NCBI GenBank assembly: GCA_945885475.1
Contig: CAMCYR010000012.1
Location: 1 to 62,243 of the forward strand
Length of the DNA stretch: 62,243 nucleotides
Origin: Chitinophaga pinensis
Lineage (GTDB): Bacteria; Bacteroidota; Bacteroidia; 2-12-FULL-35-15
Direction: 5' to 3'
Shown: piece after piece, positions 39,097-47,205 of the stretch
Layout: each line of letters opens with the position of its first letter
Position numbering within the stretch: position 1 is the first letter of the stretch
Position numbers and translations under genes: made by a program
Notes under the pieces: model-generated
The model's database searches: none
Seen by the model: the letters and a program-made list of their open reading frames with translations, nothing else
What the model was told of the DNA's origin: nothing

Positions 39097-40272
39097 TTAA
39101 GAATTGCTAATGGTTATCTTGTTTTCCGATCTTCTAAAATAAAATATTCCTAACACTCCCAATATAAAAAGAATAGTTGAGATCAATTCGGCCTGGGTAA
39201 ATCCAAAGCCGTTGATATGATACAATGTGTTAACGCGTATTTTTTCTATGAAAAAGCGCTCCAGGCCATTAAAAATAAGATAAATTGAAAATAAAACACC
39301 TGGGGTTTTAATTCGTTTTCTGATGTTCCAAAGTATCAGAAATAAAAAAAGACACATCAGTGTTTCATAAAATGGAGTAGGGAAGACCGGCGGGACTAAA
39401 TGATTACAATATTTATCTTCATTACAATTCAGGATAGGTTCACCATAATTTACAACATTGTGCGGGTAATCAAAGCTCCAAACCCAGTCGGGAGCCCAAT
39501 TAAGCCAATTTGGTTTCGGGCTCACATTATTAATTCCCCAATCACCATCGCCTGAAAGATGGCAGCCAATACGACCAACAGCATAGCCAATCATCAAGGA
39601 TGGAGCTGAAGAATCTATTAAATGGGATGTTGCAATACCATTTTTTTTGCCATAAAATATTAATGCGATGGATGCAAGAATTAATCCACCATACATGGTC
39701 AAACCATCAAAGGAAAGTAAAGCACCTACTGGATCTGAAATAAATGTATTCCAGTTTTCAAGGTTGTGAAATATTTTCGCTCCCAATAAGCCTGCAAAGG
39801 CAGCAATTAAAGTCATATTGCCAACATGCTGGTGGGGATGCATTTTTTCCTCTGTCCAAATGGGTGTAGCTAATTTTGTTTTTTCCTTTTCTCGGTATTT
39901 CATATAAACTGAAATGCCGGCAAGTAAGATTCCACCGAATAAATTTCCCTTTGCTGAAAGTAAAAAACCTTGCGTGTTTTCTGTGAAAGAAGAGAAGTTA
40001 AAAAGAATATATACTAATTTGTATCCAATTAAAAATCCAATCAATCCTGAAAAAAATAATTCGCTGCTACTTGCTTTTTCACCTTTTAGTGTTTTTACAG
40101 TTATGGCTTTTAACAGACCTTCCTCTTCTTTCCGTTTTAATTCTTTTGTCCAGAAATAAGCTGCGATCAAGAAAGCGATAGCAACAAAAAAACCGAACAT
40201 TTGTACCATTTTCAAAAAATGCAGATCAATGCCAAGCAGATCTTTTACAGCGTAGTATAGAGAAGGATACAT
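39097..40272 (-). CDS. lgt: Prolipoprotein diacylglyceryl transferase Lgt (long form)
   Basis: A 391-residue membrane enzyme that moves diacylglycerol from phosphatidylglycerol to the lipobox cysteine of lipoprotein precursors. Recognisable are the Lgt signature GYAVGRIGCHLSGDGDWG, then PTPFYE, and GLERFFIEKIRVN with the essential arginine. At 391 residues it is about 100 longer than E. coli Lgt; the extra sequence is a charged loop after the first helices (ELKRKEEEGLLKAITVKTLKGEK) and an expanded central loop with NCNEDKYCNH. Both look normal for this phylum but are worth noting. It stands alone, with a TAAATTCG element 24 bases upstream of the ATG. Confidence 0.93.
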   Translation of the reverse strand: MYPSLYYAVKDLLGIDLHFLKMVQMFGFFVAIAFLIAAYFWTKELKRKEEEGLLKAITVKTLKGEKASSSELFFSGLIGFLIGYKLVYILFNFSSFTENTQGFLLSAKGNLFGGILLAGISVYMKYREKEKTKLATPIWTEEKMHPHQHVGNMTLIAAFAGLLGAKIFHNLENWNTFISDPVGALLSFDGLTMYGGLILASIALIFYGKKNGIATSHLIDSSAPSLMIGYAVGRIGCHLSGDGDWGINNVSPKPNWLNWAPDWVWSFDYPHNVVNYGEPILNCNEDKYCNHLVPPVFPTPFYETLMCLFLFLILWNIRKRIKTPGVLFSIYLIFNGLERFFIEKIRVNTLYHINGFGFTQAELISTILFILGVLGIFYFRRSENKITISNS

Positions 40273-40796: not shown

Positions 40797-41324
40797 TTAT
40801 CCTTCCTTTTCAGTATTTTCATATTTTACGATATCTGTAGCAAAATCAACAAAAAATTTATGAGCAGATGTAAATACAAAACGGTTATCCCCTGTTTTTT
40901 CAATGATATTTCTTCTGTTCAATGTATTGATGAAGTTTTTACGTGCATCAGCATCTTTTAATTGTTTGTTTGATAGGATAAGATCTATATAGGATGAATT
41001 AGTGAAATAATTTTCAATCTCTTCCATTTCAAATTCGCTGAACTGAATGCGTTCAAGAAAATTCTTTCCATCTCTGTCTAACTCGTAACTCAAGAGAGCA
41101 ATGAAGATACAGATGTCGCGGGATAACATTTCAGCTGATTCTTCAGACACAACATAGGCGTAATCCTGTGTTAATCGCAATTCGTAATTGAACGAAGCTT
41201 TAAAGAAGTATGTATAGGATTGCTCGTTATCTTTTACCGTTTGATACGTGCGTTCGTTCGGCAGCATAAATTTACCTGCCATAAGATCTTCTACAATTTG
41301 TCGGTGGTGATTAGGAAATTCCAT
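40797..41324 (-). CDS. mksE: Kite-like condensin subunit (MksE/MukE/JetB-type)
   Basis: A 175-residue cytoplasmic protein with winged-helix character. The pattern EDLMAGKFMLPNE, then YTYFFKASFNYELRLTQDYAYV, then a helix DICIFIALLSYEL, and a later LNTLNRRNIIEKTGDNRFVF matches the layout of MukE/MksE/JetB proteins: L-(L/M)-xGxF near the start, a (Y/F)F-x4-L/Y-x-L-x-x-D-x-x-YA strand pair, and a C-terminal wing. Such kite proteins bind the kleisin and DNA in SMC complexes. The start overlaps the end of the kleisin-like gene by 14 bases. It is the last gene here, whereas kite genes normally lie in the middle of muk/mks operons. Confidence 0.7.
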   Translation of the reverse strand: MEFPNHHRQIVEDLMAGKFMLPNERTYQTVKDNEQSYTYFFKASFNYELRLTQDYAYVVSEESAEMLSRDICIFIALLSYELDRDGKNFLERIQFSEFEMEEIENYFTNSSYIDLILSNKQLKDADARKNFINTLNRRNIIEKTGDNRFVFTSAHKFFVDFATDIVKYENTEKEG

Positions 41325-42528
41325 GTTGTGGATCGATTAGTTGTGATTGTTGATTGATAGTTACTTTAGGTACTGTTAATGTAAGATCGTTGATCTTTAT
41401 TTTATCAAACTGTGGCTTGGCGCCGTATTCACGCTCAATGTCTTCGTCAAAAGCCAATGTCGTAAGTGCAAAGAATTTTTCAATTTCCACTTTTTTATAA
41501 TCTTCTTTGAGTGTTTTGTTGCACCAACTGAAAAAATTCTCTACTGGTAAATTGTCTTTTAACTTCTTCGTATAATGTTCCTTATCAAAAATCCATTTTT
41601 CGGCCTCGTTTTCTTCTTCTTCAAAATAAACATCTGTTTCATTTTTAAATTGTTCAAATATTTCAGATGCATTATAGAATGTGTCTTTCGAATAAACAGA
41701 AACTTCTTTTCGTTTTAGTAATTTCGGAGCTTTACGTTTGTATGGGTTTTTTAAATAAGTAATCCATCCTGTTAAAATGATCGATTCTGTTCTGATACGT
41801 TCAATTAAAGGTAATAATTCGTTTGTCAGAATTTTTGATTGACGTAACAAATTGTCGTTCACTTGGATCAATTGAAAATAAAGTTTTTCAAATTGAACGC
41901 GTGCATTTTCATCATCAAAATTCAAACGATACTTGTTTGAAAATTCTGAAATTTCATACAATTTATTTGCAACAGAAGTTGAATGGTTGATGTCCAAGAT
42001 CTTATTTAACGGAATAATATATTCATCGATCCAGCGGGAAGCACGGACAATTTTTTCACGGTAATCAATTTTCTTGACATTCGCTTTTAATTCACGTGTC
42101 TCCTGCAATAAACTCTGTGTATTGCGTTCCACCATTTCATAAAATGAACGAACTTCGATAGCGAGATCATTTAATCGTTGGCTAAGTGTAACTTTATCGC
42201 CATTGATGTTCTCTCGGATTTTACGAAACAGTTCAGCTATAGACGTATGATATTTTTCAATTGTTTCCGGCAACATTGGTTTGAATTCACTTAAAATAAA
42301 TTCAATCAAGTTGTAATAAACAGTACGAATTTCATAGTTATCGTTTACAGGGCTCAATATTTTATATTCAATCAATTGTGAACGGATATCACTTTCGTGT
42401 TTCGTCACAATTTGATTCAATACTTCGAACTTAATGATGCCTTCGTTAGACTGTGTTTCAAACAATTCAGCAATTGCATCATAATGTTCCAGTAAAAAAC
42501 GGAGTATAGTTTTTGGTTCAGCCTTCAT
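41311..42528 (-). CDS. mksF: Kleisin-like condensin subunit (MksF/MukF/JetA-type)
   Basis: A 405-residue cytoplasmic protein. The N-terminus has a helical, winged-helix-like domain (MKAEPKTILRFLLEHYDAIAEL to YEIRTVYYNLIEFILSEF), followed by a long helical, coiled-coil-rich middle (about 95-270) and a Lys/Glu-rich C-terminal part. This is the arrangement of MksF/JetA proteins that bridge the heads of an SMC dimer. It lies 17 bases downstream of the SMC gene and overlaps the kite-like gene by 14 bases, strong evidence of one complex. Assignment rests on context and architecture more than on a sharp motif. Confidence 0.65.
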   Translation of the reverse strand: MKAEPKTILRFLLEHYDAIAELFETQSNEGIIKFEVLNQIVTKHESDIRSQLIEYKILSPVNDNYEIRTVYYNLIEFILSEFKPMLPETIEKYHTSIAELFRKIRENINGDKVTLSQRLNDLAIEVRSFYEMVERNTQSLLQETRELKANVKKIDYREKIVRASRWIDEYIIPLNKILDINHSTSVANKLYEISEFSNKYRLNFDDENARVQFEKLYFQLIQVNDNLLRQSKILTNELLPLIERIRTESIILTGWITYLKNPYKRKAPKLLKRKEVSVYSKDTFYNASEIFEQFKNETDVYFEEEENEAEKWIFDKEHYTKKLKDNLPVENFFSWCNKTLKEDYKKVEIEKFFALTTLAFDEDIEREYGAKPQFDKIKINDLTLTVPKVTINQQSQLIDPQHGIS

Positions 42529-42545
42529 TTATTAGTATGTTTTAG

Positions 42546-45239
42546 CTAGTTCAAATCTTTTGAATTCTTCTTTCCAAGTTTTTCTATTACACCATTTCGT
42601 TCAACAATTACTGCATTTTGTTTTTCGTTGATATTGATTTTACCTTTTGAAGGGTAGATGAAATAGTATTTATTAAATCCTTCAACAGCATCTGGTGCAG
42701 CGAAGATCGGAATGAAGTTGTGAGCATTACAGAATTTTACAAGTTCTGGTCGGTTTTGCTTATCGATCGTTGCAACCTCATCAATGAACAACGTGATCTT
42801 ATTTTGTTCATCAGTAATGGCTAAACGATTGATAATTGCCATGATGATCACCAAACGGATCATCCTGTCGGTACCATCCGATTCGACTTGGTTTGCTAAG
42901 TCAACTCGTTTTTCGGTTCCTTTGATCTCCAGCAACAATTCGATGTTGAACAATTCATCAAAATGAACTTTTTTACCGGTATCCAAATAAGTATTCAGTA
43001 TTTTAAGGTTTTCTGATTGGTCAAAATCAAAACTCATTTGACCATTAAATTCCTGAATAGAACTGATTTGCTTTAGCTCACTGATGATACGTTCATTATC
43101 AATCAAATCAATTTTTAAAGACTCAATATTAGAGATGCGCGTAGTCGCTAGCTTTGTATTGAACTTGTCGTAAACGAATTGTTTAAATTCTTCGTAGCGT
43201 TTAAGTAATGTAAATGCCGGATTTGCAAATTGAGTAGAGATACTTGACAATAATCCGTCTATACTTCTTTCTTTATCATTCAGGCAGGCAATCTCTTCTT
43301 CAACGAAATGGATGAATTCTTCTTCATCAGCAATACTACTTCTTAAGCGGTATTTTAATCCTTCAAAAGTAACATCTTTGTTTGCTTTTATGTCATGACG
43401 GTCTTTTTGATGAATCTGAATCTTTGAATAGATGTAATCTAAATTATCGTTTGTTTCGTATTCTCGAGGTTCCACTTCAATGGATTCCATTTCCATTTTT
43501 CGGTCTTTCAATTCTTTTACACGAAGTTCAAGATTACGTTTTTCTTCATTCAGCTTGTCAAGCATAATTTGTTTCGAAGCGATTTCTTTCACTAAATCGT
43601 TCAAATGCAATTCTAAATCTTTCTTTTCTTCATTGAATACTTTGATTTCATCAATGATACCTTTAACAGCTCTTTCCAATTGTGGCTTTGTCTCAATTCC
43701 TTTGATCTTTTCCTTGATTATTTCCAGTTCACCAAGAATACTTTTTAATTTGAAATCTGTTTTTTCTTTGTCAACAACAGTTTTTAGTAATTCTTCTGTT
43801 ATTTTCTTTTCTGAAAGTAAAACTTTTAATTCATCCTTCAGTTCCTTCACAGATCTGAATTCTGTAAGTTCCAGTCCCTTTGAAATGTCAATTTCTCCAT
43901 CAAAAATATTCATCAGTTTATCTGATACTTTTTTGATCTGCTTCTTGATCTGTTTACTAGGTAAACTCAATACCTGCTCAGAAAGAATCGCATTTAGTAG
44001 TTGCTTTGTTTTTTCATCATCAGAAATTTTGTGGATCAATAAGTTATTGTAATTATTGATCTGATTTTCAACGGATGCAATCTTATCGTTCACTTTTTCT
44101 AATCGGAATTCAAGGTGCTTACTAGATAATTTCTGGCTTTCGATTGTCGTAATACGATTCTCGATTTCTTTCCGTTCTTTATCCAGATTTTTCATCGATT
44201 CCTGAAGGAAATCAATCGTTTCGTATTTATTGATTTCATCCAATTCCCTTTGCTTTTCACTCAGGTAGTTGGTTTTGTTTTTTATCTCCGCATTTTTTTC
44301 ACCAATGTAAGAAGCGTAGTTTAATTCTTTTGGTTTTAATATTTCATTGATCTCGTTGTGGATGGCTGCTATGTGTCGACCTCTTTCAACCGAAGATATT
44401 TCAAGTTCTGGTATCGCAGCAGTATAAGCGGTGTTAAAGGCATAAAGCAATTCACTCACAACGGTTGTTTTTGACCTGTGCGTTTTAACCAATTCTCTGA
44501 AATCGAGAAAATCTGTACGAACGGCTTTAATACTCTTGATCTCTTCATTGATTCTCAAAAGATCTGTAATATCTTTTTTATTTTTCTGCGAGAAATTTAA
44601 GCCTTCATTTTCGCGGTTATCCGCAATAATCAATGATTCTTTTAATGTTTTATTCGTGATCAGTTTGGAATTGATGAGGTAGCGGTATACTTTTGAAAAG
44701 TTGTTGCTTAATCCATCCGCTTTCACTGTATCTTCCAGCCAAACTACTGCATTGTTTTTTGTTCCTCTATGGTAAACATGATTGAATACGTCCGTTTTTG
44801 TAGCAAATTTACTGTGCAAAACATCTTTTTTATTCAATGATTCAATAACTTCATCAAAGCTTAATAAACGTTGGTGGGTACCTTCATTTTCGAAGAAAAA
44901 TGCTTCATTGTATTCACTGTCGATCTTGTAATATTCAAGCTCTCCGTCGGTATTGCGTTTTACCAATATGCAGTAATAGCCCATTTTATTAATCTCGAAA
45001 ATCAAAAAACTCTTATTATGAGTGGGGAAATAGTGATGAATAGTTTCTTTATCACCTTTACGCTGACCACTAAATGACATCTTTTGGCCGTCAACAACAA
45101 AAAGGAAATTCAAGGCGTAGATCAGCGTGGATTTTCCAATATTGTTTGGACCCACCAACTGAATGGAATCACAATTGTCGAGTTTCATTTCGGCTTTGCC
45201 GTAACCTTTCGAGTTAATTAAGGAGATTCGAGTAAGCAT
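42546..45239 (-). CDS. mksB: Short-armed SMC-like ATPase (MksB/JetC-type)
   Basis: An 897-residue ATPase. The N-terminal head has Walker A GPNNIGKST (residues 30-38). The C-terminal head has an ABC-signature-like SDGTDRM (787-793) and Walker B ITLFIDEVATID with Asp820/Glu821. Between them is a heptad-like coil, out about 285-400 and back about 460-590, joined by a short segment (about 410-460) instead of a clear hinge domain. Arms of some 120 residues are far shorter than those of MukB or SMC. A minus-strand TATATTTG element lies 30 bases before the start. The proteins encoded downstream look like kleisin and kite partners, so a DNA loop-extruding or plasmid-limiting complex is inferred. Confidence 0.75.
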   Translation of the reverse strand: MLTRISLINSKGYGKAEMKLDNCDSIQLVGPNNIGKSTLIYALNFLFVVDGQKMSFSGQRKGDKETIHHYFPTHNKSFLIFEINKMGYYCILVKRNTDGELEYYKIDSEYNEAFFFENEGTHQRLLSFDEVIESLNKKDVLHSKFATKTDVFNHVYHRGTKNNAVVWLEDTVKADGLSNNFSKVYRYLINSKLITNKTLKESLIIADNRENEGLNFSQKNKKDITDLLRINEEIKSIKAVRTDFLDFRELVKTHRSKTTVVSELLYAFNTAYTAAIPELEISSVERGRHIAAIHNEINEILKPKELNYASYIGEKNAEIKNKTNYLSEKQRELDEINKYETIDFLQESMKNLDKERKEIENRITTIESQKLSSKHLEFRLEKVNDKIASVENQINNYNNLLIHKISDDEKTKQLLNAILSEQVLSLPSKQIKKQIKKVSDKLMNIFDGEIDISKGLELTEFRSVKELKDELKVLLSEKKITEELLKTVVDKEKTDFKLKSILGELEIIKEKIKGIETKPQLERAVKGIIDEIKVFNEEKKDLELHLNDLVKEIASKQIMLDKLNEEKRNLELRVKELKDRKMEMESIEVEPREYETNDNLDYIYSKIQIHQKDRHDIKANKDVTFEGLKYRLRSSIADEEEFIHFVEEEIACLNDKERSIDGLLSSISTQFANPAFTLLKRYEEFKQFVYDKFNTKLATTRISNIESLKIDLIDNERIISELKQISSIQEFNGQMSFDFDQSENLKILNTYLDTGKKVHFDELFNIELLLEIKGTEKRVDLANQVESDGTDRMIRLVIIMAIINRLAITDEQNKITLFIDEVATIDKQNRPELVKFCNAHNFIPIFAAPDAVEGFNKYYFIYPSKGKININEKQNAVIVERNGVIEKLGKKNSKDLN

Positions 45240-45276: not shown

Positions 45277-45517
45277 CCCTAATGCTTTGTGGAATTTATT
45301 AGCTGAAGTTCCTGTTAATAACAATTGCTTTAAACAGGGCTTGTCAGAGGTTTTTTGTTAAAAAAAATAAAGTTTTTAAAAGTTTTAATTTGTACTTGAT
45401 TTTTGATAAAAAAATCGTATCATAAATCATTACAAAAAAGTCTGCAACCATTATATATCCTCTTTTTTAGTCGTTATGACTTTTTTGGTGTTAAAGGTTT
45501 GTTAAATTAGTGTAGGC

Positions 45518-45548
45518 CTTGCCCAATAATTTCTGAGCAAGTTTTTTT
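45518..45548 (+). terminator. Plus-strand hairpin with T run and no gene in front of it
   Basis: Stem CTTGC (45518-45522) and GCAAG (45537-45541), loop of 14 bases, followed by seven T at 45542-45548. The T run is on the plus strand while both flanking genes are on the minus strand. Confidence 0.35.
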
Positions 45549-45575
45549 CAGCAGCGCTTACAATGGTATTAGAAT

Positions 45576-45765
45576 TTACTTTCCTCCCTGACGCATAATT
45601 CCGTGTTTCTCTTTATGCCAAAGCGTAATCTCTAGCAATAAATAATAGAGAATATTTTTTGTCACTGCCTCATTCACAAAACGTTTTCACCATTTCCCTT
45701 CTATCCTTTACTTTGATGGTGTTGTTCGGTTTGATCTCAATAAGGTTATTACCCAAATTTAACAT
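45576..45765 (-). pseudogene. Frameshifted small reading frame (about 62 codons), unknown
   Basis: A frame from an ATG at 45765 gives about 31 codons (MLNLGNNLIEIKPNN to KDRREMVKTF) before a stop. Losing one T from the TTTT run (minus strand, near 45680-45684) joins it in phase to a second open stretch (VNEAVTKNILYYLLLE to HKEKHGIMRQGGK) ending at 45576. The joined sequence reads as one helical, basic protein. It could be a decayed gene, a sequencing error or chance. I do not recognise the family. Confidence 0.3.
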
Positions 45766-45867: not shown

Positions 45868-47205
45868 TTAGTTCAGGATCGAGTTTGATGGCGACGTAAC
45901 AAGCGTTACGAGCATATTTCCATCAGTATCCAGTCCTTTTAACTCAACCTTTTTTACTTTGTTTATGAGTAAAGGATTGTAAGGTGTTTTCACTTTTATA
46001 TAATTATCGGTGAAGCCATGCATAAACCCTTCCTTATTATCTGATTCGAATAATACGATTCGTGTTTCTCCAATGTGCTCTTCGTAAAACAGGCGGAGTT
46101 TTTTTGCTGATAATATACGCAGCATTTTATTACGCTTTTTTCTTATTGCAATAGGTACTACCTCTTTTAAAAGAATGGCATCTGTATTGTCGCGCTCAGA
46201 ATAGGTAAAGACATGCAGGTATGAGATAGGAAGTTCATTCAGGAAATGATAGGTATCCAGAAAATCTTCATCTGTTTCCCCTGGAAATCCAACAATTACA
46301 TCCACACCAATACAACAATGTGGCATCATTGTCTTGATTTTTGCAACACGTTCGCTATAGAGGTCACGAAGATATCTTCTACGCATTGCTTTCAATATTT
46401 TATTGCTACCCGACTGAAGTGGAATATGGAAATGAGGTGCAAATCGTTTTGATCTTGAAACAAATTCAATAGTCTCATCTTTTAATAAATTAGGCTCGAT
46501 TGAGGAAATGCGGAAACGTTCAATGCCTTCCACTTTATCCAATTCCCTGACCAGATCAAAAAACAGTTCTTGCTTTTTATTACCTTCTTTGGTTTCATTG
46601 TTTCCAAAGTCACCTAGGTTCACTCCTGTTAAAACAATTTCTTTTACATCTTGCTTCGCAATATCAGTTGCATTCTTAACAGCATTTAAAATACTGTCGC
46701 TTCTGCTTTTGCCACGGGCAAGGGGAATGGTACAAAAAGAGCAATTATAATCACAACCATCCTGTACTTTTAAAAACACACGTGTTCTGTCTCCAAAGGA
46801 ATACGAGTCTACAAAAAAATTAGCTTCCTCTATTTCGCAGCTATATATTTCTGCTTTTGTTTTTTTTGTAAGATCACTCAGGTAATTTAATAATTTAAAT
46901 TTTTCTGATGCGCCCAATACGAGATCAACTCCTTCTATATTTGATATTTCTTCTGGTTTTAATTGCGCATAGCAACCCACAATGACAACATATGCATCAG
47001 GTGAAACAGCTAATGCCGATTTTACAATCTGTTTACATTCTTTGTCTGCATTTGCAGTAACAGAACACGTATTGATGACGTAAATATCGCTTGGTTCTTT
47101 GAAATCAACCTTCTGGTATCCTTGATCTTCGAATAAACAAGCAATCGTGCTTGTTTCCGAAAAGTTGAGTTTGCAACCCAAGGTATGAAATGCGACTTTT
47201 TTCAT
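45868..47205 (-). CDS. mtaB: MtaB, tRNA t6A37 methylthiotransferase
   Basis: A 445-residue radical SAM methylthiotransferase. The N-terminal UPF0004 domain supplies Cys11, Cys47 and Cys78 for the second cluster, and the radical SAM motif is GCDYNCSFC (Cys151, Cys155, Cys158). A TRAM-like C-terminal domain follows (ETRIVLFESDN to VKVELKGL). The overall sequence fits the MtaB branch (t6A to ms2t6A at tRNA position 37) better than MiaB, given the N-terminus VAFHTLGCKLNFSET and the sequence around RLFYEEHIG. The chain is complete. A TAACTTCG element lies 10 bases before the ATG. Confidence 0.93.
   Translation of the reverse strand: MKKVAFHTLGCKLNFSETSTIACLFEDQGYQKVDFKEPSDIYVINTCSVTANADKECKQIVKSALAVSPDAYVVIVGCYAQLKPEEISNIEGVDLVLGASEKFKLLNYLSDLTKKTKAEIYSCEIEEANFFVDSYSFGDRTRVFLKVQDGCDYNCSFCTIPLARGKSRSDSILNAVKNATDIAKQDVKEIVLTGVNLGDFGNNETKEGNKKQELFFDLVRELDKVEGIERFRISSIEPNLLKDETIEFVSRSKRFAPHFHIPLQSGSNKILKAMRRRYLRDLYSERVAKIKTMMPHCCIGVDVIVGFPGETDEDFLDTYHFLNELPISYLHVFTYSERDNTDAILLKEVVPIAIRKKRNKMLRILSAKKLRLFYEEHIGETRIVLFESDNKEGFMHGFTDNYIKVKTPYNPLLINKVKKVELKGLDTDGNMLVTLVTSPSNSILN

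Follow-up and report, generated by a model that had tools for sequence, protein, structure and literature searches.

The locus described here raises the question of what a three-gene operon that resembles a bacterial condensin, with its genes in an unusual order and no nuclease among them, does for the cell that carries it. E. coli MukBEF is a nuclease-less SMC complex of the KITE type, and the MksBEF genes of P. aeruginosa run in the order kleisin-KITE-SMC; the complex of strain PAO1 is said to have been treated by Petrushenko in 2011. PAO1 MksBEF has been studied as a chromosome condensin, and the papers name no nuclease subunit (Zhao 2020, PMC7485682). In Wadjet, the recognition of small circles activates JetD (PMC10512200). 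A past as defence systems has been proposed for MukBEF and MksBEF, without direct evidence (Liu, Roisne-Hamelin and Gruber 2023, PMC10586767), and work on chromosome contacts in gut Bacteroidetes reported no known condensin and invoked unidentified SMC complexes (PMC10197239). We think it probable that the operon goes back to a Wadjet/MksBEFG-like system whose nuclease was lost, and that it is today the chromosome condensin of its lineage, a complex of the MukBEF/MksBEF type.

Anatomy of the operon

In the window (the whole stretch of 62,243 nucleotides that was analysed), the three genes follow one another on the minus strand in the order SMC, kleisin, KITE (Table 1). Re-reading the sequence confirmed the reading frames, strand, 17-base gap and 14-base overlap (kleisin-KITE, 41311-41324) given in an earlier note on this DNA. 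That note spoke of a reversed gene order; it had read the order correctly, but what happened is no reversal: two gene pairs have been rotated. The anatomy of the operon, three fold types in this order and no nuclease, is firm.

Table 1. Genes of the operon, the SMC-kleisin junction and neighbouring features, in window positions
Feature	Position	Strand	Length	Relation to the operon	Evidence
SMC (MksB/MukB-like) ATPase	42546..45239	-	897 aa	subunit	motifs, predicted model
Kleisin (MksF/MukF/JetA-like)	41311..42528	-	405 aa	subunit	predicted model, Foldseek, HHalign
KITE subunit (MksE)	40797..41324	-	175 aa	subunit	Pfam PF21980
SMC-kleisin junction	42529..42545		17 bases	slot holding a JetD-like TOPRIM gene in relatives	
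mtaB-type radical SAM gene	45868..47205	-		upstream neighbour; context, outside the machine	Pfam UPF0004 + Radical_SAM
lgt	39097..40272	-		downstream neighbour; context, outside the machine	Pfam LGT 8.9e-39
Decayed DUF7793 gene copy	45445-45741	-		between mtaB and SMC gene	several stops, best tblastn E 3.6e-12

The KITE subunit is identified by its Pfam match to MksE (E 3.9e-21, 76.6 bits against a cut-off of 27). The SMC protein carries the Walker A motif GPNNIGKST, the signature VESDGTDRMIRL and the Walker B motif LFIDEVATID, all kept in 46 relatives, and its predicted model (pLDDT 74) has a split ABC head, two coiled-coil arms of ~180 residues each and a small, low-confidence hinge region at about residues 400-463. 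The best Foldseek matches of this model are to MukB (E 5e-20), and in VIA-align the MukB head comes out on top (Z 23.2, rmsd 3.7 over 376 residues), followed by Rad50 (Z 19.4), Smc (19.1) and JetC (18.4). The kleisin model (pLDDT 78; pTM is about 0.45 for both this and the SMC model) consists of an N-terminal winged helix, a helical middle, an unstructured linker and a C-terminal winged helix, and its top two Foldseek matches are JetA (8q72_E, E 1.4e-4) and MukF (9gm7_C, E 9.7e-4). Its predicted likeness to these proteins is structural and weak by sequence, with a weak match to NCBIfam NF040857 (E 4e-5) and an HHalign match to canonical-order Mks kleisins (92%, E 7.5e-7, 356 columns). The VIA-align rows for the kleisin mix MukF with helical bundles of syntaxin, STAT and CorA (Z 9-14), so Z alone is not proof, and the identification is carried by the Foldseek ranks and the domain layout.

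The PADLOC Jet models gave no sequence match to the kleisin or the KITE, and sequence searches of the PDB with the SMC, kleisin, KITE and TOPRIM proteins, single or as profiles, gave nothing useful; the matches of the SMC profile were to coiled-coil proteins such as Beclin and were set aside. NCBIfam NF040857 and NF040859 match the trio weakly or not at all. The family named 'condensinMksB' (NF040857, 412 aa) matches kleisins and that named 'condensinMksF' (NF040859, 926 aa) matches SMCs; these names look swapped relative to the literature and were therefore not used as labels.

Pfam, HHalign, Foldseek and VIA-align together bear out what the earlier note assigned, an SMC, a kleisin and a KITE protein that belong to the MukBEF/MksBEF/Wadjet superfamily. 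Comparison with the Muk, Mks and Jet families by HMM gave MksE for the KITE and only weak sequence matches for the kleisin, the predicted structures matched MukF/JetA and MukB/JetC, and the possibility that the neighbours of the SMC gene had no kite or kleisin fold came out otherwise (Pfam MksE, a kleisin-like model). The operon has the SMC-type ATPase with Walker A and B motifs, signature and coiled-coil arms, the MksE/MukE-type KITE and the kleisin with winged-helix domains at both ends (model, Foldseek, HHalign) that mark MukBEF/MksBEF. Its order departs from kleisin-KITE-SMC, which is usual and not strictly defining, and we therefore regard it as a variant whose proteins themselves belong to the superfamily.

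A rotated order and a closed nuclease slot

An SMC profile run against 84,980 species genomes found 154 related stretches; 80 were kept, and nearly all of these are labelled Bacteroidota. Wherever a related locus yielded all three genes, they lie on one strand as SMC-kleisin-KITE, so this order is not due to chance. The remaining MksE loci that were sampled in the phylum have the order kleisin-KITE-SMC, in most cases with a nuclease-size gene directly after the SMC gene. Two loci from another class of the phylum, L084 and L085, have the canonical order kleisin-KITE-SMC-nuclease and are full-length profile homologues of the trio (SMC 99.9%, E 4e-36; kleisin 92%, E 7.5e-7). Therefore, the order of the trio is a rotation of two modules, from [kleisin-KITE][SMC-nuclease] to [SMC-nuclease][kleisin-KITE], and the nuclease has been dropped; this rotated order is fixed in a clade of Bacteroidia. 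The same order with a nuclease, which the earlier note had raised as a possible standard form in the phylum, does exist, but it is the minority form. In one otherwise ordinary member (L109:8001-16913), an insertion of ~4.5 kb that contains two large ORFs separates SMC from kleisin.

The relatives that bear a TOPRIM gene hold it between SMC and kleisin (L065, L094/L176, L154, L169, L174, L178, L179 and L181), in a gap of 770-841 bp at the place where the trio has its 17 bases; L179 is a Nonlabens locus. These nucleases of 261-279 aa have the TOPRIM glutamate (E-N), a DYD motif and a C-terminal LEQE/LEQQ, as in JetD; single proteins match JetD models weakly, and profile comparison with canonical JetDs reaches 97-98%. 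A decaying copy survives in L138, one of an otherwise nuclease-less pair, where 55 residues of the nuclease C-terminus lie in a 430-bp gap and the start of the gene is gone. This remnant is 54.5% identical (E 4e-15) to the nuclease of its sister L154, whose gene looks intact. In L139, also a sister of L138, the 241-bp gap between SMC and kleisin has no detectable nuclease remnant.

The operon studied here has no JetD/MksG TOPRIM nuclease, which some relatives carry. As the earlier note held, neither flank supplies one: the downstream neighbour is lgt, the upstream neighbour is mtaB, and the upstream gap holds only the decayed DUF7793 gene, which is intact (134 aa) in L071 and other relatives. 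A profile search of the host genome for JetD_C gave no match, and among the 36 genomes of the host family the domain occurs in one, within a separate Wadjet. With the slot closed, this bears out the lack of a nuclease subunit and weakens the suggestion that one is encoded elsewhere.

A first tree warned of long branches meeting, and we therefore used a mixture-model SMC tree with an outgroup. Rooted with L084/L085, this tree requires at least five changes of the nuclease label, places the trio in a well-supported nuclease-less clade, and has the nuclease on both deeper branches (L065 and the canonical-order L084/L085). The simplest reading is repeated loss of the nuclease, and descent from a nuclease-bearing four-gene system is likely.

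Distribution and genomic context in the host family

The host order comprises, in the genome set, one family with a single genus and 36 genomes, 26 of them counted as good. MksE is present in 25 of these 26, and the kleisin likewise. Neither ScpA (PF02616) nor the SMC hinge (PF06470) was found in any of the 36, so that the ScpA kleisin and canonical hinge that mark Smc-ScpAB are both missing. Model failure does not explain this absence, since both models find matches elsewhere in Bacteroidia and, across a set of 30 genomes, give the same answer for each genome. Nor are assembly gaps the cause, since Bacteroidetes bacterium UKL13-3, whose genome is closed, has the trio and lacks both ScpA and hinge. 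No condensin other than the trio is recognised in this family of freshwater bacteria.

Across a draw of 395 Bacteroidia, the SMC of the trio occurs in 47 genomes (it was not detected in the other 348) and ScpA in 81, with an overlap of one (Fisher p 0.0002, kinship ignored). Among the 38 genomes reached through related loci, ScpA occurs in two, a Cyclobacteriaceae MAG and Pontibacter, each of which has the operon with nuclease. We considered whether the trio strictly replaces Smc-ScpAB and do not claim it: 268 of the 395 genomes contain neither of the two, and the trio is therefore not necessarily a substitute. Copies with the nuclease are also present where the host lacks ScpA (L154, L169, L178, L179 and L181), which means that loss of the nuclease does not track loss of Smc cleanly. 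About two thirds of the Bacteroidia drawn thus live with neither ScpA nor the trio, and where tested ScpA and the hinge were lost together.

Within the family the usual site of the trio is between mtaB and lgt, close to mutL, and not in a defence island; mtaB adjoins it in 29 loci and lgt in 19. It is under strong purifying selection, with dN/dS against near relatives of about 0.002-0.03 where dS could be computed. Plasmid, phage and viral collections, which are poor in such hosts, held no close copy. The one parS site in the window, with three mismatches, is expected by chance. In the family member G423 the sole trio is a different nuclease-less copy (L175, on C20), 49% identical and related to that of Pontibacter; it sits outside the usual mtaB-lgt site, and it is possible that it displaced the core trio.

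Descent, function and competing explanations

We hypothesize that the ancestor was a four-gene SMC-TOPRIM-kleisin-KITE system, built like Wadjet/MksBEFG and presumably a defence system that restricted plasmids, and that the TOPRIM gene was lost from between SMC and kleisin. The complex would be a ring in which a MukF-like kleisin, bearing a dimer of the MksE KITE, closes an SMC dimer. If it works as MukBEF and Wadjet do, the engagement of its heads by ATP, closure by the kleisin and DNA clamping with the help of the KITE would extrude loops, and so fold and segregate the host chromosome; a motor without JetD could act on the chromosome and not cut it. Of the options in the earlier note, the best supported is that of a separate branch with a part in chromosome organisation, a housekeeping role that we infer. 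We offer more tentatively the wider idea that, in a number of Bacteroidia families which lost Smc-ScpAB, a plasmid-restriction SMC became a housekeeping condensin through repeated, independent deletion of the nuclease at the SMC-kleisin junction, with the intermediates (intact, decaying, gone) in living relatives.

It is unlikely that the trio is still a defence system, sensing small circular DNA and limiting plasmids without cutting or with a nuclease recruited from elsewhere. Its closest nuclease-bearing relatives are Wadjet-like, and those parts with which it would sense plasmids (SMC, kleisin and KITE) are intact; however, the host genome has no JetD_C match, and the trio is near-universal in its family, mostly at a fixed site amid housekeeping genes, unlike patchy defence islands. 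In one 5.4 Mb genome, G395, the core trio is found together with three other loci, the permuted nuclease-bearing copy L065 and two of canonical order in which a gene of nuclease size follows the SMC gene; these three have the nuclease position filled, and the core trio is the only copy that lacks such a gene.

The order of events might also have been the opposite, with the nuclease-less trio ancestral, a TOPRIM gene gained between SMC and kleisin in some lineages and the defence form derived. The five or more label changes on the SMC tree are compatible with mixtures of gain and loss, and the nuclease-less form is the majority, but both deeper branches have the nuclease at the corresponding position after SMC, and L138 keeps a decaying nuclease tail beside a sister with an intact-looking gene; we judge this history improbable. 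Hardly credible is a repair or recombination complex of the Rad50, Lamassu or AriA type in place of a condensin. There are weak sequence matches to AriA and HEC-01 and, for relatives, to LmuB, yet the trio has a kleisin and an MksE KITE, both of which are lacking in Lamassu/AriA/Rad50-like systems with their effector or Mre11-type partner, and its SMC scores higher with MukB than with Rad50 in fold comparison.

Our preferred reading, a nuclease-less condensin of Wadjet-like descent, places the trio among several known systems. Like Wadjet type I (MksBEFG, JetABCD) it has a kleisin, an MksE-type KITE and an SMC, with a JetD-like TOPRIM in some relatives, but it lacks the nuclease, has the rotated order, and its SMC is 897 aa against about 1100 or more. 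Like PAO1 MksBEF it is a short SMC with a kleisin and MksE, whereas the PAO1 complex coexists with Smc-ScpAB, of which the host family has none. E. coli MukBEF likewise has no nuclease, is the main condensin of a host without Smc-ScpAB and provides in MukB the best structural match to the SMC head; unlike the trio, it has the much longer MukB (1486 aa) and the order mukF-mukE-mukB, and belongs to a different lineage.

Condensins without a nuclease are already known (P. aeruginosa MksBEF, PMC7485682; MukBEF), and an origin in Wadjet has already been proposed (PMC10586767). In the literature covered, which included few subscription papers and preprints, we found no description of the permuted order, the SMC-kleisin nuclease slot, the L138 fossil or the Bacteroidia core form, although such silence is weak evidence that order, slot and core form are new. 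The trio is a candidate for the missing condensin in some Bacteroidia families, and it offers a case in which the passage from defence to housekeeping machine could be tested. Because forms with and without the nuclease occur in a single protein family with an unchanged gene order, and a decaying nuclease links them, the proposal of a defence past becomes testable by comparison and by experiment.

The systems of L084/L085 share with the trio a Walker A of the GPNNxGK type and a short SMC (939-962 aa), and plasmids of Salinibacter and Polaromonas have gene layouts similar to this canonical-order short-SMC Mks with nuclease. Unlike the trio, all of these run kleisin-KITE-SMC-nuclease, keep the nuclease and are patchy or plasmid-borne. 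The permuted system L065:3966-10160 of G395 is highly divergent, with ~30% identity to the SMC of the trio; a WYL/HTH regulator gene precedes its operon, and it looks like an active defence locus.
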